Below, one piece after another: positions 13,593 through 20,671 of a stretch of DNA of 54,712 nt. The translations under genes were made by a program, and so were the position numbers. The DNA is from Natronospirales bacterium (GTDB lineage: Bacteria; Pseudomonadota; Gammaproteobacteria; Natronospirales; REEB76), in NCBI GenBank assembly GCA_018971605.1, contig JAGXAL010000003.1, positions 1-54,712 on the forward strand. The letters are read 5' to 3'. The notes under the pieces are model-generated. The model searched no databases. It was not told the DNA's origin and saw only the letters and a program-made list of their open reading frames with translations. Each line of letters starts with the position of its first letter. Position 1 is the first letter of the stretch.

Positions 13593-14588
13593 GTGGCGGT
13601 GGAACGCTTACAGGAATTGCGCGTCTGGACAGCGCAGGCGTTGCGACTTGCGGCGGTTGATTTGCAGGCGCTGCCGGCGGATGCCAGTTTCCGCCGCTAT
13701 TTCCGGGTACGGGATGGTGCGCGTTCGTTTATTGTCATGGACGCGCCGCCACCCCAGGAGAATTGCCGGCCGTACGTGCAGGTAGCCGGTCTGCTCAAGA
13801 CGGCCGGTGTGCATGCCCCGGAGATTCTGGCCCAGGATTTGGCGCGCGGGTTTCTGTTGCTCAGCGATCTCGGGCGGCAAAGCTATCTTGAAGCCTTGAA
13901 GAATGGCAATCCCGACGAATTGTTTGCGGATGCCATTGACGCGCTGATCCGTTGGCAGCGCGCCAGCCGCCCCGGGGTATTGCCGGTTTACGACCGCGCG
14001 CTGCTGCGCCGCGAATTGAACCTGTTCCCTGAGTGGTACCTGGCGTGGCACCTTGGCGTGACGCTCGGCGCGAACGAGCAGGCCGGGCTGGAAGGCGTAT
14101 TTCAATTGCTGGAGGACAGCGCCCTGGCTCAGCCTCAGGTATATGTGCATCGCGATTACATGCCGCGCAACCTGATGGTGGCCGTGCCCAATCCGGGCGT
14201 GCTGGATTTCCAGGACGCGCTCTTTGGTCCGATCACTTATGACATTGCCACGCTGTTCAAGGACGCCTTCATTTCCTGGGATGCCGGGCAGATTCTGCGC
14301 TGGCGTCGCCAATATTGGCAGCAGGCGCGGCAGGCTGGATTGCCGCTGCCGGACTTTGACGAATTTGAGCGCGCCTGCGACTGGATGGGCATGCAGCGGC
14401 ACTTCAAGGTACTCGGGATTTTCGCACGCCTGCGTTACCGCGACGACAAACGGGGTTATCTCGAAGATACGCCGCGGTTTTTGAATTACGTACGCACTAC
14501 CGCGCGCCAGTACCACGCGCTTGCCTCGCTGTTGCCGGTGCTGGACGTTGTGGAGAGCCGCACACAGACTGGGGTTTGCGCGTCGTGA
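13593..14588 (+). CDS. amgK: Anomeric N-acetylmuramate/N-acetylglucosamine kinase AmgK
   Basis: Phosphorylates MurNAc at the anomeric position, the first step of the recycling route that bypasses de novo UDP-MurNAc synthesis. The 331 residues have an aminoglycoside phosphotransferase fold. ADASFRRYFRV (about 29-39) is the typical glycine-poor N-lobe start, the catalytic loop is HRDYMPRNLMV, and the metal-binding Asp is in VLDFQDALFGP. I chose GTG 13593 because CGGGAG precedes it by six bases and the similarity begins there; the open frame extends further upstream antisense to lptD. It overlaps murU by four bases (GTGA). Gene pair and position beside lptD match Pseudomonas. Confidence 0.94.
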   Translation: MAVERLQELRVWTAQALRLAAVDLQALPADASFRRYFRVRDGARSFIVMDAPPPQENCRPYVQVAGLLKTAGVHAPEILAQDLARGFLLLSDLGRQSYLEALKNGNPDELFADAIDALIRWQRASRPGVLPVYDRALLRRELNLFPEWYLAWHLGVTLGANEQAGLEGVFQLLEDSALAQPQVYVHRDYMPRNLMVAVPNPGVLDFQDALFGPITYDIATLFKDAFISWDAGQILRWRRQYWQQARQAGLPLPDFDEFERACDWMGMQRHFKVLGIFARLRYRDDKRGYLEDTPRFLNYVRTTARQYHALASLLPVLDVVESRTQTGVCAS

Positions 14589-15259
14589 AGGCCATGATCC
14601 TTGCGGCCGGCAGAGGCGAGCGCCTGCGGCCGCTGACCGACACGTTACCCAAGCCTTTGATCGTGGTGCACGGTCAGACGCTCATCGAGCGGCATTTGCA
14701 GGCGCTGAGCGTGGCAGGCTTTCACGAGATCGTGATCAACGTCTTCTGGCTGGCGGATAAAATCAAAAAGCATTTGGGTGACGGCTCGCGTTATCGTGTG
14801 CGTATCCGGTATTCCGAAGAGCCGGAAGGCGCGTTGGACACCGGAGGCGGAATTCTCAAGGCGCTGCCCTTGTTGGGCGCCGGTCCGTTTCTGGTCGTCA
14901 GCGCCGATATCTACACGGATTTTCCGCTTGCCAATCTGAAAACTGCGTTGGCCCATGCGGATTTCGCGCACTTGGTAATGGTGCCGAATCCGTCGCATCA
15001 TCGCGAGGGTGATTTTGTTCTGGATGCCCAAGGCCGGTTGCATGCCGACGGTCGTCCGCGTCTCACTTACGCCGGCATCGGCATGCACCGCCCGGAATTT
15101 TTCAGCGAATGTTCGCCGGGGCGGTTTTCGATGCTGCCCTGGTGGCAGCGGGCCATGCGTGCGGGACGTGTGAGCGGGGAGCTGTACGACGGCGACTGGC
15201 AGGACATCGGCACGCCGGAAAGTCTGCGTGCCTTGAACGCTCTTAGTTCTGATTCGTAG
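14585..15259 (+). CDS. murU: N-acetylmuramate alpha-1-phosphate uridylyltransferase MurU
   Basis: Converts MurNAc-1-phosphate, made by AmgK, to UDP-MurNAc in peptidoglycan recycling; in Pseudomonas this route underlies intrinsic fosfomycin tolerance. At 224 residues from GTG 14585, it begins with the nucleotidyltransferase signature MILAAGRGERLRPLTDTLPK, and the metal-binding Asp lies in VVSADIYTDF. GTG overlaps the amgK stop by four bases. TTG at 14576 and ATG at 14594 are alternatives, but family members start with M-K-A-M. The stop overlaps the convergent lipoprotein gene by 17 bases. Confidence 0.94.
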   Translation: MKAMILAAGRGERLRPLTDTLPKPLIVVHGQTLIERHLQALSVAGFHEIVINVFWLADKIKKHLGDGSRYRVRIRYSEEPEGALDTGGGILKALPLLGAGPFLVVSADIYTDFPLANLKTALAHADFAHLVMVPNPSHHREGDFVLDAQGRLHADGRPRLTYAGIGMHRPEFFSECSPGRFSMLPWWQRAMRAGRVSGELYDGDWQDIGTPESLRALNALSSDS

Positions 15260-16943
15260 CAATCCCGAAATACGGACTGGCGGCGTTGGTGCCGATCAGC
15301 AGAAATTCACTGGAGTTGATTGGGTAAATCGCAAACGGCGAACCGCCGCCGCTGCTGTTGATTGTAGCCGTGCCGCGGGCCCCGCCATTAAGCATGTAAT
15401 TGCCGCCCAGCGATAGCATTGATGATACGTTGCCACTCAGGTTCTGGAGCATTTGGCCACGGAGATTGCCGTTGCCGTCGAGTCCGAGTGTGCCCACGGC
15501 AGCGGATAAATTCGCAGCGCTGGTCTGGCTGCCAAGAGCGAAACCGAAAACACCTTTGAGGAAGGAGTTGTTGAAGGTACTGCCCTGGGTTTGCATTACG
15601 ATGTAGCCGCCCGCGGCAATCGCCGAATTGGTGGTGATGAACTCGGCCAACTGCGGCGACAGCATGTAGAACACATAGTTTTGCGGCGTCGTATTTCCGG
15701 GATTGTTCAACGTCAACGTGCCGCGGCCATTGACATTGGCATCGGCACTGTAGGTGCCCGTTATAGTTGCATCGCTCTGGACATTACCCGGCATGTTGAT
15801 GTCGGTAGTGACGGTCCCGAGACTGCCCAAACCGTTGGGGTTGAACTGGCCGGCCTGCACGTAGTATTGGGTGGTACTGTTGCCATTGATCAGGAATACG
15901 TATGGCCCGCTGAGCGATGAATTAGCGTAGGTTTGTGGCGCCTGTGCGGAGAGATTGCCGTTGGCGGTCACGCCAGGATCATCGGACAGCAGCGCGAAAT
16001 CCGAGGCCGATGCCACATAGAAACTGTAAACATGATTGCCGTTACTGTCCTTGATGGTCAGCGTGCCATGGTTATTGCCATCGAATGCGTAGCTGCCGGT
16101 GTAGGAAGTGCGGGACAGCGGCTTGGATCCGTTGACATCTTCAAAACCGGAAATGCTGGTGCCGTTCACGGTACTGATAAGGGCAAGCTGGTCGAAGCCC
16201 TGGGCACCGGTTTGGCCGCCAGTATTGAGTATCAGCGGCGCGTTGAACGCTGAAACATTGCCTGCTGCAGGATCCTGAACCGACAGTGACCCGGTGAGCG
16301 TTGTGCCATTGCTGGTACTCAACAGGAAGGCTTGCCCGTTTGCCTGCATGGACAGTTCGAAATTCAGATTGTCGAGGGCAAGGCTGCCGCTACCGTCGGG
16401 ATTGATGCTGTAGCTGCCAGTGAATACGGCCTTGGTTTGTATCGCCGTTCCGTTGTTGATGTCTTGCAGGCCGGAACTGATCTGACCGGTGCCGTTGGCA
16501 GTGAATTCTCCTATGGCGAACCACGGTGCGCCCTGGTTGTTGCCGCTGAGCGCAAACACGTAACCGCCCTCCAGCGAAGCGTTCGCATAGGCGATCATGA
16601 GCGTGGCGGAACCGGAAGCGCCGCTGTTGCCTTGCTCGATCGCGGTGATGGTTACTTTGCCGCCGGCAGGAGGCAGGTTGGGCGCCGTGTAAAGTCCGGT
16701 TGACGAAATGGTGCCGAGATTGCTGCTGCCGCCAGCAACACCGTTCACCTGCCACACAAACGCCGTGCCGCCGTCGCTGGCCGTGGCCGTCATCTGTTGG
16801 GTGGCACCCGCCAGCACTTGCATGCCTGAGGGCGAGACGCCGACGCCCGTGGAAGCGGTAGAGCCTCCGGAACCGCCGCAGGCGGCAAGCGCCAGGGTGA
16901 CGGCGATCAGGGCAAAAAATCCAGTTTGCGAAGACATGTGCAT
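15243..16943 (-). CDS. Large repeat-containing lipoprotein (paralogue of 17877-19586)
   Basis: A 566-residue putative lipoprotein with signal ALIAVTLALAAC and a lipobox cysteine near residue 22, followed by GGSGGS. An Ig-like domain occupies about 35-115 and contains the common phrases VLAGATQQMTATA, FVWQVNGVAGG and GLYTAPNLPP. Then come four repeats of about 100-125 residues built on the pattern (S/N)L.G.YVF...G....IG.F...G.G.I..G..D.N....FTGSY....G.GT.TL, ending in a Y.F(Y/I)..S...F....T segment. No enzyme motif or transmembrane barrel is obvious. It is most likely surface or periplasmic and beta-rich. Function unknown. Its stop overlaps convergent murU by 17 bases. Confidence 0.8.
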   Translation of the reverse strand: MHMSSQTGFFALIAVTLALAACGGSGGSTASTGVGVSPSGMQVLAGATQQMTATASDGGTAFVWQVNGVAGGSSNLGTISSTGLYTAPNLPPAGGKVTITAIEQGNSGASGSATLMIAYANASLEGGYVFALSGNNQGAPWFAIGEFTANGTGQISSGLQDINNGTAIQTKAVFTGSYSINPDGSGSLALDNLNFELSMQANGQAFLLSTSNGTTLTGSLSVQDPAAGNVSAFNAPLILNTGGQTGAQGFDQLALISTVNGTSISGFEDVNGSKPLSRTSYTGSYAFDGNNHGTLTIKDSNGNHVYSFYVASASDFALLSDDPGVTANGNLSAQAPQTYANSSLSGPYVFLINGNSTTQYYVQAGQFNPNGLGSLGTVTTDINMPGNVQSDATITGTYSADANVNGRGTLTLNNPGNTTPQNYVFYMLSPQLAEFITTNSAIAAGGYIVMQTQGSTFNNSFLKGVFGFALGSQTSAANLSAAVGTLGLDGNGNLRGQMLQNLSGNVSSMLSLGGNYMLNGGARGTATINSSGGGSPFAIYPINSSEFLLIGTNAASPYFGIATNQN

Positions 16944-16994
16944 GCGATTGCCAGCCGTGGCTGCAATCTTACACCCAGGGGCGCACGATACGGT

Positions 16995-17816
16995 TTACTG
17001 CAATTTGACTTCCACGGTGTGGGCCGCGTTCAGACCGAAGATCCCGAGTTCCAGATAGGTGCCGGCGGCGCCGCCGAAATTCCCCGAAATGGACGCCGAG
17101 CTGAGGAATCCCAGCCCATTCATGACACCCGGGCAGCCGCTGCCGCTGGCGGTCCAGTTCACGTAGAACAGATTGGTCTGCGGGTCCTGCTGCACCAGCG
17201 TGCCGGCGAGCGTGCAACCGTTGGCATCGTTGCCGGTGAAGCTGCCGTTGCCTGCGAAGTTGAGGGCCACGGCAGCCGGGGTTTTGCCGAGATAGTAACC
17301 GTCCCATTGGCCTTGCAACCCGGCCAGCGACGGCGTGCTGCTGTAAGGTGTGTTGGTGTTCAGCGTGAAATTGCCGTTCAGGCCGGTAGCTGTGGTGGTG
17401 GGAGGACTGCCAACCAGGGCATAGGACGTCAGCGTGGCCTGCATCGAAGTGGAAGTGCCGGAGGACGCATAAGTTCCCTTCACTATGAAGGGCACCACGC
17501 CGCTGACAATCGGGAAGTTCGTGCCGGGCGCGGGAGTTCCGATCAGTATCGAAGTGAAGGGTGCGGTGTTGGGTACTGATTGCAGCATGAAAATATTGCC
17601 CTGGCTGTCGGCAAAATAACCGAAGCCGCCCGCCGATACGGCGCCAGCGACCGCAATCTGGCTGCCGCCGTTGAGGTTGTAGGTTCCCGCCCACGGGCCG
17701 GGCACCACTTCCAGAATGGGCGTGGGCGGAGCGGATGACTTGCTGGAACTCCCGCAGCCCGCGAGCGCGGCGGCGGCCAGCAGCATTACCAGGATAGCGG
17801 ATCGGTTCATGTACAT
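16995..17816 (-). CDS. Small lipoprotein of the same cluster
   Basis: A 273-residue lipoprotein with signal LVMLLAAAALAGC and a lipobox Cys at residue 21, followed by SSSKSS. The rest is Gly/Thr/Ser/Asn-rich and probably beta-sheet. It contains GPWAGTYNLNGG near 40-51 and a later GLQGQWDGYYLG segment, each like the start of a repeat unit. There is a pair of cysteines in GCTLAG and GCPGVMNG that could form a disulfide. No recognised domain. It lies between the two large paralogues with 51- and 60-base gaps, so probably co-transcribed. The start could also be the ATG two codons in. Confidence 0.72.
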   Translation of the reverse strand: MYMNRSAILVMLLAAAALAGCGSSSKSSAPPTPILEVVPGPWAGTYNLNGGSQIAVAGAVSAGGFGYFADSQGNIFMLQSVPNTAPFTSILIGTPAPGTNFPIVSGVVPFIVKGTYASSGTSTSMQATLTSYALVGSPPTTTATGLNGNFTLNTNTPYSSTPSLAGLQGQWDGYYLGKTPAAVALNFAGNGSFTGNDANGCTLAGTLVQQDPQTNLFYVNWTASGSGCPGVMNGLGFLSSASISGNFGGAAGTYLELGIFGLNAAHTVEVKLQ

Positions 17817-17876
17817 GGAGTACCCGTGTATCTACATTATTTCCTGAGGCAATTTACACACAAGAGCGCGGCCTGC

Positions 17877-19586
17877 TTAATACTGGCTGACCATCAAGCC
17901 GCTTACCGGGGAGGGGCCGGCACCCAGCAGGATGAGCGAACCGCTGGAGATGGGGTAAAACGCGAAATTGGTGCTGGTGCCGCCGTTGGTGGTCAGCGTC
18001 ATCAGCCCGCGCGTCGAAGTGTTGGTGCTTGACGCGGTGACCGCGTAGGTGCCGGTGACTGACAACTGTCCGGATGCCGTGCCGTTGTCGTTGGTGTTTT
18101 CGAACCCGGCGATGGCGCCGATGCCATTCAGCGTAAGCAGGCCCATGGATAGCGTCGGCGTCGCCCCTGCGGGGCTTGCCAGGGACAGGGTGTAATTGCC
18201 GCTGAGCGCGACGGTGGAGAAACCACCGGTCTGCAGAAACAGCAGGCCACTGGCGTTGATGCCGGGATCGCTGGACAGCAGGAACGCCGAAGTCGGCGTG
18301 ATCTCGTAGTACACGTAATTATTGGCGCCGCTGGCGCCGTTCAGGGTAATGGTGCCGCGACCGGAGGTGCCGTAGATAAAGCTCCCGGTGAGCGTGCTGT
18401 TGCTGGCGAGAGTCCCCGCCAGATTAATGTCCGAGGTGCCGGCATTGATGGTGCCGCCGACCGTGGTACTGGTGGCGAATCCGCCAGCGATCCCGTAGGC
18501 GGAAGTTCCGTTGCTGCCGGCTGCGTAGAAGACATAACCGCCGGCAAGCGTGCTGGTCGAGGTCACGGACTGCTGCTGGAAGGCGGTGCCGCTGAGGTTG
18601 CCGGTGCTGTCGGTTTCGATGAACTGCAACTGGTTCGGGGAAACCAAGTAGAAGCTGTAACTGCGTGTGCCGGTCGAATCCGTGAAGCTGGCAGTGCCGC
18701 GTGCGCCGCTGCCGATGCTGTAGCTGCCGCTGAACGGCTGATTCGCGGTGCTGCCGCCGAGGTTCAGGTCTTCTTCCGCGTAGGTCAACGTGTTCGTTCC
18801 GTTGGTCACGAAGGTACCGATGGCGTTCAAGGATTTGCCGGAGGCATTGCCGCTGAAACTGAACACGTAGGCTGCGTTCAGGTTGGTGAGCGTAAGCGCG
18901 GTGGACTGCTGTGCGTAGAAATTGCCGCTCGCGGTGGTGCCGGAGTCGGTGCGCATGACCACGGCTTGACCCTGGGTGTTGAGTGTGAAGCTCAGGTTGA
19001 CGCTGCCCTGGGAGCTGGTGAAGGTGGCGATGCCGATGCCGCTGGCATCAATGAAATAACTGCCGCTGAACGGCAGGGCCGTGGACACGCCGGACGGACC
19101 GTTGATGTCTTCCACACCGCTGCCGATCTGGCCGTTGCCCGCGGTGAAGCTGCCTACCGCGGCCCAGGGGCTTGCGGATTGGGTGCCGTTCAATGTGAAT
19201 ACAAAATTGCCGTTCAAGGATGCGTTGGAGAAAGTGATGCCGATGGTCACCGAGGTGACGGCGGCAGGGTAAGCCTGGGGGGAGGCGCTGATCACCACCG
19301 TGCCGTTGGCAGTCGGCATGTCCGGCGCGGTGTACAAGCCCTGAGGCGTAATGGTGCCCACGGCGCTGTTGCCGCCGGGGATGGCGTTCACGTACCAAAG
19401 TACCGTGGTATTGCTGCTGTTGGCCACCACCGCGCTGAGCTGCAGGCGGCTGCCGGCCGCGATCGTGGTGGGAATCGGTGTCACCAAGGTGATCGTCGGC
19501 GGGGTTACCTGGGAGCTGCCGCCGCCGCAGGCTGTCAGCAGCAAGGCGAACATCAGCAGGCAAAGTTGTCTGGGCGCTCGCAACAT
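17877..19586 (-). CDS. Large repeat-containing lipoprotein (paralogue of 15243-16943)
   Basis: A 569-residue lipoprotein with signal LLMFALLLTAC and a lipobox Cys near residue 20. An Ig-like domain spans about 30-115 (TIAAGSRLQLSAVVAN, VLWYVNAIPGG, GLYTAPDMP). Four repeats of about 105-120 residues follow, starting near ASLNGNFVFTLNG, LNAAYVFSFSGN, TLAGGYVFYAAG and ALSGNYTLSLAS. Each carries a DIN, DLN or NTN element and a (F/L)(S/T)G(S/T)(Y/F) element followed by a GRGT-like turn. It matches the paralogue in length, order and repeat number, indicating a tandem duplication. The first gene of the cluster, with GAGGAG about 12 bases before the ATG. Function unknown; adhesin or surface-layer-like roles are only conjecture. 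Confidence 0.8.
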   Translation of the reverse strand: MLRAPRQLCLLMFALLLTACGGGSSQVTPPTITLVTPIPTTIAAGSRLQLSAVVANSSNTTVLWYVNAIPGGNSAVGTITPQGLYTAPDMPTANGTVVISASPQAYPAAVTSVTIGITFSNASLNGNFVFTLNGTQSASPWAAVGSFTAGNGQIGSGVEDINGPSGVSTALPFSGSYFIDASGIGIATFTSSQGSVNLSFTLNTQGQAVVMRTDSGTTASGNFYAQQSTALTLTNLNAAYVFSFSGNASGKSLNAIGTFVTNGTNTLTYAEEDLNLGGSTANQPFSGSYSIGSGARGTASFTDSTGTRSYSFYLVSPNQLQFIETDSTGNLSGTAFQQQSVTSTSTLAGGYVFYAAGSNGTSAYGIAGGFATSTTVGGTINAGTSDINLAGTLASNSTLTGSFIYGTSGRGTITLNGASGANNYVYYEITPTSAFLLSSDPGINASGLLFLQTGGFSTVALSGNYTLSLASPAGATPTLSMGLLTLNGIGAIAGFENTNDNGTASGQLSVTGTYAVTASSTNTSTRGLMTLTTNGGTSTNFAFYPISSGSLILLGAGPSPVSGLMVSQY

Positions 19587-19699: not shown

Positions 19700-20671
19700 T
19701 CAGGCCATGCTGACCAAGCCCTCGGCTTGGTGATCGGCATGATAGGACGAGCGCACCAGCGCGCCACTGGCTACGTGCCGGAAACCGATCTGGTAACCAT
19801 AAGTCTCGATATCCTTGAACTCATCCGGTGTCACGTAGCGCACAATCGGATGGTGGAAGCGGCTCGGCTGCAGATATTGGCCGACTGTCAGCATGTCCAC
19901 TTGGTGCGCGCGCAGGTCGCGCATCACCGCGCGGATTTCGTCCAGGGTTTCGCCCAGTCCCAGCATCACGCCGGACTTGGTGGGCAGTTGCGGATGCGCC
20001 TGCTTGAAGTGCGCGAGCAGCGCGAGCGAGTGTTGATAATCGGAACCCGGGCGCACCTCGCGGTACAGACGCGGCACGGTTTCCAGATTGTGGTTGAACA
20101 CGTCCGGGGGCGCGGCGGCCATCAATGCCAGCGCCACGTCCATGCGTCCGCGGAAATCCGGCACCAGCACCTCGATGCGGGTTTGCGGGCAGAGCTCGCG
20201 GATCGCGCGGATGCAGGCGACGAAATGGCCGGCGCCGCCGTCGCGCAGGTCATCGCGATCCACGGAGGTGACCACCACGTATTTCAGGCCCATGGCCTGG
20301 ATGGTGCGCGCGAGGTTCCGCGGCTCATCTGTATCCAGTGCCACTGGTCGGCCGTGGGCCACGTCGCAGAAGGTGCAGCGGCGCGTGCAGATGTCGCCCA
20401 TGATCATGAAGGTGGCGGTGCCCTTGCCGAAACATTCGCCGATGTTGGGGCAGGATGCCTCTTCGCAGACCGTGTGCAGCCGATTGGCGCGCAGGATTTG
20501 TTTGAGGCGCGCAACTTCGGGGGTGGCCCAGGAGCGCACCCGGATCCACGCCGGCTTGCGCAGCGGTGTCACCGTAGGTTCGATCTTGACCGGGATGCGC
20601 GCCATTTTTTCAGCAGCGCTGAGCTTCTGGCCTGGCTCAAGCCGGGCGCGAGCGGCGGAAGACTCGATCAC
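19700..20671 (-). CDS. lipA: Lipoyl synthase
   Basis: Radical-SAM enzyme that inserts two sulfurs into octanoyl-protein to form lipoyl groups. In the 323 residues, the auxiliary cluster cysteines are Cys69, Cys74 and Cys80 ([12 protein letters not shown]), and the radical-SAM cysteines are Cys95, Cys99 and Cys102 (CTRRCTFC). The C-terminal serine ligand is in RSSYHA. The start is GTG 20671, overlapping the lipB stop by four bases. It forms a coupled set with lipB and ybeD. Downstream is the 113-base gap leading to the lipoprotein cluster. Confidence 0.97.

Follow-up and report, generated by a model that had tools for sequence, protein, structure and literature searches.

The locus between lipA and murU raises the question of what its three lipoprotein genes encode, and whether they amount to an undescribed protein system, for which an initial annotation had named them the best candidate. 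The window analyzed here is a stretch of 54,712 nucleotides and belongs, as contig C140, to a draft genome of 1.94 Mb that is 91% complete. Within it we confirmed two lipoproteins of about 570 residues with a common architecture, here called A and C, as well as the third, shorter lipoprotein lying between them (B). The features are as follows:

19700..20671, minus strand: lipA, which flanks the cluster upstream, is conserved and is read in the same direction as A, B and C
17877..19586, minus strand: A, a 569-residue lipoprotein with an Ig-like region (residues ∼27-118) and four predicted barrel repeats (residues 121-227, 233-339, 344-453 and 458-569, from the profile and the predicted structure)
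18906..19226, minus strand: repeat 1 of A, eight strands predicted, pLDDT mostly 83-92
18570..18890, minus strand: repeat 2 of A, VIA Z 13.5 against the de novo barrel 8ah9
18228..18557, minus strand: repeat 3 of A, from the profile and the predicted structure
17880..18215, minus strand: repeat 4 of A, VIA Z 14.6 against the designed barrel 6czj
16995..17816, minus strand: B, a 273-residue lipoprotein of another family, with two conserved cysteines (201 and 228)
15243..16943, minus strand: C, a 566-residue paralogue of A with the same architecture (repeats at residues 121-224, 230-335, 341-452 and 459-566)
14576..15259, plus strand: murU, the conserved convergent flank

The minus-strand order is lipA-A-B-C with intergenic gaps of 113, 60 and 51 bp, and the 3′ ends of C and the convergent murU overlap by 17 bp. 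The lipoboxes, read directly, are LTAC-GGG in A, LAGC-GSS in B and LAAC-GGS in C. A promoter and terminator scan of the cluster, bearing on a possible operon structure, gave no signal above chance.

A and C are 36% identical, and in both the four repeats per protein described initially were borne out. An iterated profile recovered four units of ∼108 residues in every complete copy of A and C, including all eight units of the window's A and C. When unit pairs were compared with shuffled sequence (local alignment, 500 shuffles), Z reached 14.5 in A and 16 in C, with most pairs scoring above all 500 shuffles. The exceptions both involve repeat 4, the most divergent unit: A2-A4, with Z 3.6, equals the shuffle maximum, and C1-C4 has Z 1.6. 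The DIN, FTGSY and GRGT elements noted in the initial annotation are present as consensus elements of the repeat, though degenerate in several units. Similarly, the N-terminal Ig-like region with GLYTAP is as first described, though its score lies under the Pfam cut-off (Big_2 in C, E 0.023, 15.1 bits against the 22.8 needed; in A Big_2 is not listed and the best Ig match is Ig_3, E 0.015, 16.2 against a cut-off of 30). In searches of Pfam, NCBIfam and PDB sequences, A and C matched no named family above cut-off.

The AlphaFold2 model, built from 13 sequences, does contain a repeated structural unit. It has a mean pLDDT of 78.5 and a pTM of 0.74, with the repeats mostly at 70-95 and the Ig region poorly modeled (45-68), and each repeat is modeled with about eight strands, corresponding to an eight-stranded beta-barrel. 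Among the matches listed, the top PDB structures are designed eight-stranded barrels, with Z 13-14.6 over ∼100 residues. Natural proteins among the 50 listed fold matches, which include PmSLP-1, TbpB, HphA and fHbp, score Z 7-9, near the level at which the tool warns of a merely common arrangement of strands. The predicted barrel fold of the repeats is thus well supported, and a kinship of A and C to TbpB-like proteins is not. No lipocalin appears among those 50 matches, an absence that excludes nothing. No ligand-binding residues were identified, and much of the strongest conservation falls on positions that appear structural.

In view of the barrel fold, A and C might be exported by a Slam-type (type 11) secretion system, as surface lipoproteins related to TbpB. 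What marks TbpB for export is its C-terminal eight-stranded barrel, and A and C have both a lipobox signal peptide and, by prediction, eight-stranded barrels; their natural structural neighbors include TbpB, fHbp, HphA and PmSLP-1. In one genome of the genus (G005), moreover, a TPR plus barrel outer-membrane protein is encoded ∼1.5 kb from a repeat paralogue, and relatives of this protein in G006 and G008 match SlipAM below the cut-off. PMC8406197 is cited in favor of this reading. However, 19 genomes of the order yielded no SlipAM (PF04575) match above the cut-off, although in the window genome, 91% complete, a gene could conceivably have been missed, and neither TbpB_B_D nor Lipoprotein C gave a Pfam match at E 1. 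In neither the window genome nor G003, the latter 97% complete and with A-B-C, was the TPR-barrel protein detected, and among the genomes looked at it is linked to barrel repeats in G005 only. With no SlipAM over cut-off, and with the TPR-barrel protein undetected in those two genomes and not linked outside G005, we rejected an assignment to the Slam/T11SS family, and we regard the cargo reading as highly doubtful. The TPR-barrel protein itself (G005:C3 L037:3816-5144; also L086, L087 and L088) is patchy in the genus, shows sub-cut-off SlipAM and EpsL similarity, and may represent a diverged outer-membrane protein of type 11 secretion or of polysaccharide export.

We considered B as a third repeat protein and rejected it, as hhalign gave a probability of 3-7% against the A/C repeat. 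The AlphaFold2 model of B reached a pLDDT of 41 from 4 sequences, and no fold is claimed. Its two conserved cysteines suggest a disulfide. Orthologues of B lie within the cluster of five other genomes; further B relatives come from G001 (C24) and from G382 and G421, both of another family, and in the sister genus (G011, C13, L043:6230-8024) two B-family lipoproteins stand in tandem. B is best described as a separate, co-located lipoprotein, possibly accessory to A and C.

Of the 11 genomes of the genus, 10 carry A-family genes, and the remaining one is 52% complete. The cluster sits between lipA and murU wherever this region is assembled, though it is not always complete. Four genomes have the order A-B-C there (the window genome, G003, G007 and G008), and the short contig of G010 shows the same to the extent that it covers the cluster; G001 lacks B at this place, G005 has A-B, and G006 has A alone, while the contigs of G002 and G004 stop inside the cluster. 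G005 additionally encodes a divergent C-like paralogue with ∼33% identity away from this locus (G005:C3 L037:6609-8294). The repeat was absent from every genome of the six other genera searched in the order, and two overlapping samples, one with 274 genomes of Gammaproteobacteria and one with 398 of Pseudomonadota, gave only single weak units outside the genus, in G037, G184 and G649. A single scan of genome contigs, with narrow patterns taken from one repeat type, returned only MAGs of the same genus, and those relatives whose records carry a name are MAGs labeled gammaproteobacterial or 'Natronospirales'. In the tree, A and C fall on opposite sides of one branch with support of 100/99, indicating that their duplication predates the radiation of the genus.

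A, B and C are all under purifying selection, with dN/dS of 0.11-0.29, similar to lptD, murU and lipB. Two close species pairs show A or C exchanged for a divergent allele between flanks that stayed near-identical. Between G001 and G008 the flanking genes are 87-94% identical (dS 0.13-0.29), whereas A is 62% identical with a dS of 1.24 that stays even over its whole length, and B is absent; between G003 and G004, C has a dS of 1.5 against 0.24-0.40 for A and the tested flanks. As a control, 76 genes across 200 kb of G001 and G008 had a median dS of 0.26. Since 4 of the 76, A among them, exceed 0.8, replacement at this locus is unusual but not unique. The other three lie close together (G001:C27 73599-76112, L112; dS 1.0-1.6 against G008) and form a candidate replaced segment of their own.

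A second property of the proteins is their low charge. Charged residues make up 4-6% of mature A, B and C, compared with 24% of SurA and 15% of LptD. On the contig of a sister genome (G008), A and C are the two least charged of 83 proteins, below membrane proteins, and three other lipobox proteins there have 16-19%. This depletion may stem from prolonged contact with a strongly acidic exterior. The isolate names DX, YP and REEB led us to guess an acid-mine-drainage habitat, and every statement on acid exposure made here depends on that guess; a literature search on the habitat of the order found nothing relevant. Alternatively, low charge could be a trait of the repeat family itself, though a relative in Granulicella has 9%.

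Taken as a mechanism, these data would fit paralogous outer-membrane lipoproteins built like a string of beads, in which a lipid anchor is followed by a flexible Gly/Ser linker, one Ig-like stalk and four tandem up-and-down eight-stranded barrels. The Lol pathway would sort A and C to the outer membrane, as suggested by Gly rather than Asp after the lipidated Cys, and the near-removal of charged residues suggests that they at least partly face an acidic outside. Through their variable loops and faces the barrels may bind a ligand such as a polysaccharide, a mineral or a cell surface, which would make A and C adhesins or binding proteins that shift in specificity or antigenicity by allele exchange. 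We give about even chances to this reading of A and C as acid-exposed, allele-swapping surface binding or adhesion proteins on an Ig stalk. By default, lipoproteins sorted by Lol end up in the periplasmic leaflet, and A and C might instead face the periplasm as unexposed outer-membrane scaffolds or ligand-binding proteins of the envelope, in accordance with the Gly at +2 of the lipobox and with the adjoining envelope-biogenesis genes lptD, surA, murU and dacA. We consider this unlikely given the allele replacement and variability, and given a charge depletion that is extreme next to SurA, LptD and other lipobox proteins.

The initial annotation had pointed to similar repeats in soil bacteria such as Acidobacteria and had raised horizontal transfer. 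One record supports the link to Acidobacteria: among 72,556 plasmid records, through which alone Acidobacteriota were sampled, the sole match was the conjugative plasmid pACIX903 of Granulicella tundricola (NC_015058.1). Its protein WP_269744712.1, annotated as 'putative Ig domain-containing protein', is 32% identical to A over 206 residues and has Ig domains followed by at least three A/C-type units by profile (E 2e-12, 9e-17 and 1e-4). The gene (L075:3283-8970) adjoins an OmpA-family gene, and the conjugative plasmid is a possible route of spread. A literature search on Acidobacteria Ig proteins found nothing relevant.

As to origin, the locus might have been acquired from Acidobacteriota of the same acid habitats and then duplicated, a proposal compatible with the functional readings. 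The conjugative plasmid as the only match, and the absence of the repeat from the other genera searched and near-absence in the Pseudomonadota samples, point this way. On the other side, identity is only ∼32-37%, composition is native, the duplication preceded the genus radiation, and transfer could have run in either direction. We regard this origin as tentative, and somewhat less probable than not. The restricted distribution is compatible with horizontal transfer as such, but recent transfer was rejected, as composition and codon use are native (GC 62.7% in A, 57.8% in C and 62.6% in the window) and A and C had already duplicated before the genus radiated. A phage origin was likewise rejected, with no match among phage records or viral contigs. 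A more novel reading, distinctly unlikely in our estimate, is that this unnamed tandem-barrel lipoprotein family, common to a gammaproteobacterial genus of acid habitats and to Acidobacteriota, constitutes a surface locus that swaps alleles and, under strongly acidic conditions, determines attachment or phage/predator recognition, its proteins reaching the surface independently of a classical Slam exporter.

An unnamed repeat thus now has a predicted fold, within a conserved, recombining lipoprotein locus of environmental bacteria. Characterized barrel surface lipoproteins come mainly from host-associated bacteria; were A and C surface-exposed, they would offer a free-living example, and how the outer membrane is crossed without a recognized Slam would become a question.

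Compared with known systems, TbpB, fHbp, hemophilins and PmSLP-1 share eight-stranded barrels with A and C (predicted in the latter), and all but the soluble hemophilins share the lipid anchor. A and C differ in having four tandem barrels rather than one or two, and have no TbpB_B_D sequence match, no SlipAM partner at cut-off and no sign of an animal host. The de novo fluorescence-activating beta-barrels (mFAP; 6czj and 6d0t) are likewise compact and eight-stranded, with ∼110 residues and Z 14.6 over 102-103 residues, but they are artificial and the likeness is one of fold only. Big_2 proteins share the GLYTAP-type Ig region at the N-terminus, which in A and C falls under the Pfam cut-off and precedes a main body of predicted barrels. 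The Granulicella protein resembles A and C in carrying several copies of the same repeat after Ig domains, as seen in one plasmid record; unlike them it is ∼1440 residues long as annotated, has many Ig domains and an OmpA-family neighbor, is less charge-depleted and was not seen as a lipoprotein. With the predicted fold already known and B no more than a possible accessory of A and C, 'undescribed protein system' claims too much. Rather than a categorically new system, A and C are a new arrangement of known parts: lipoprotein, Ig stalk and eight-stranded barrels.
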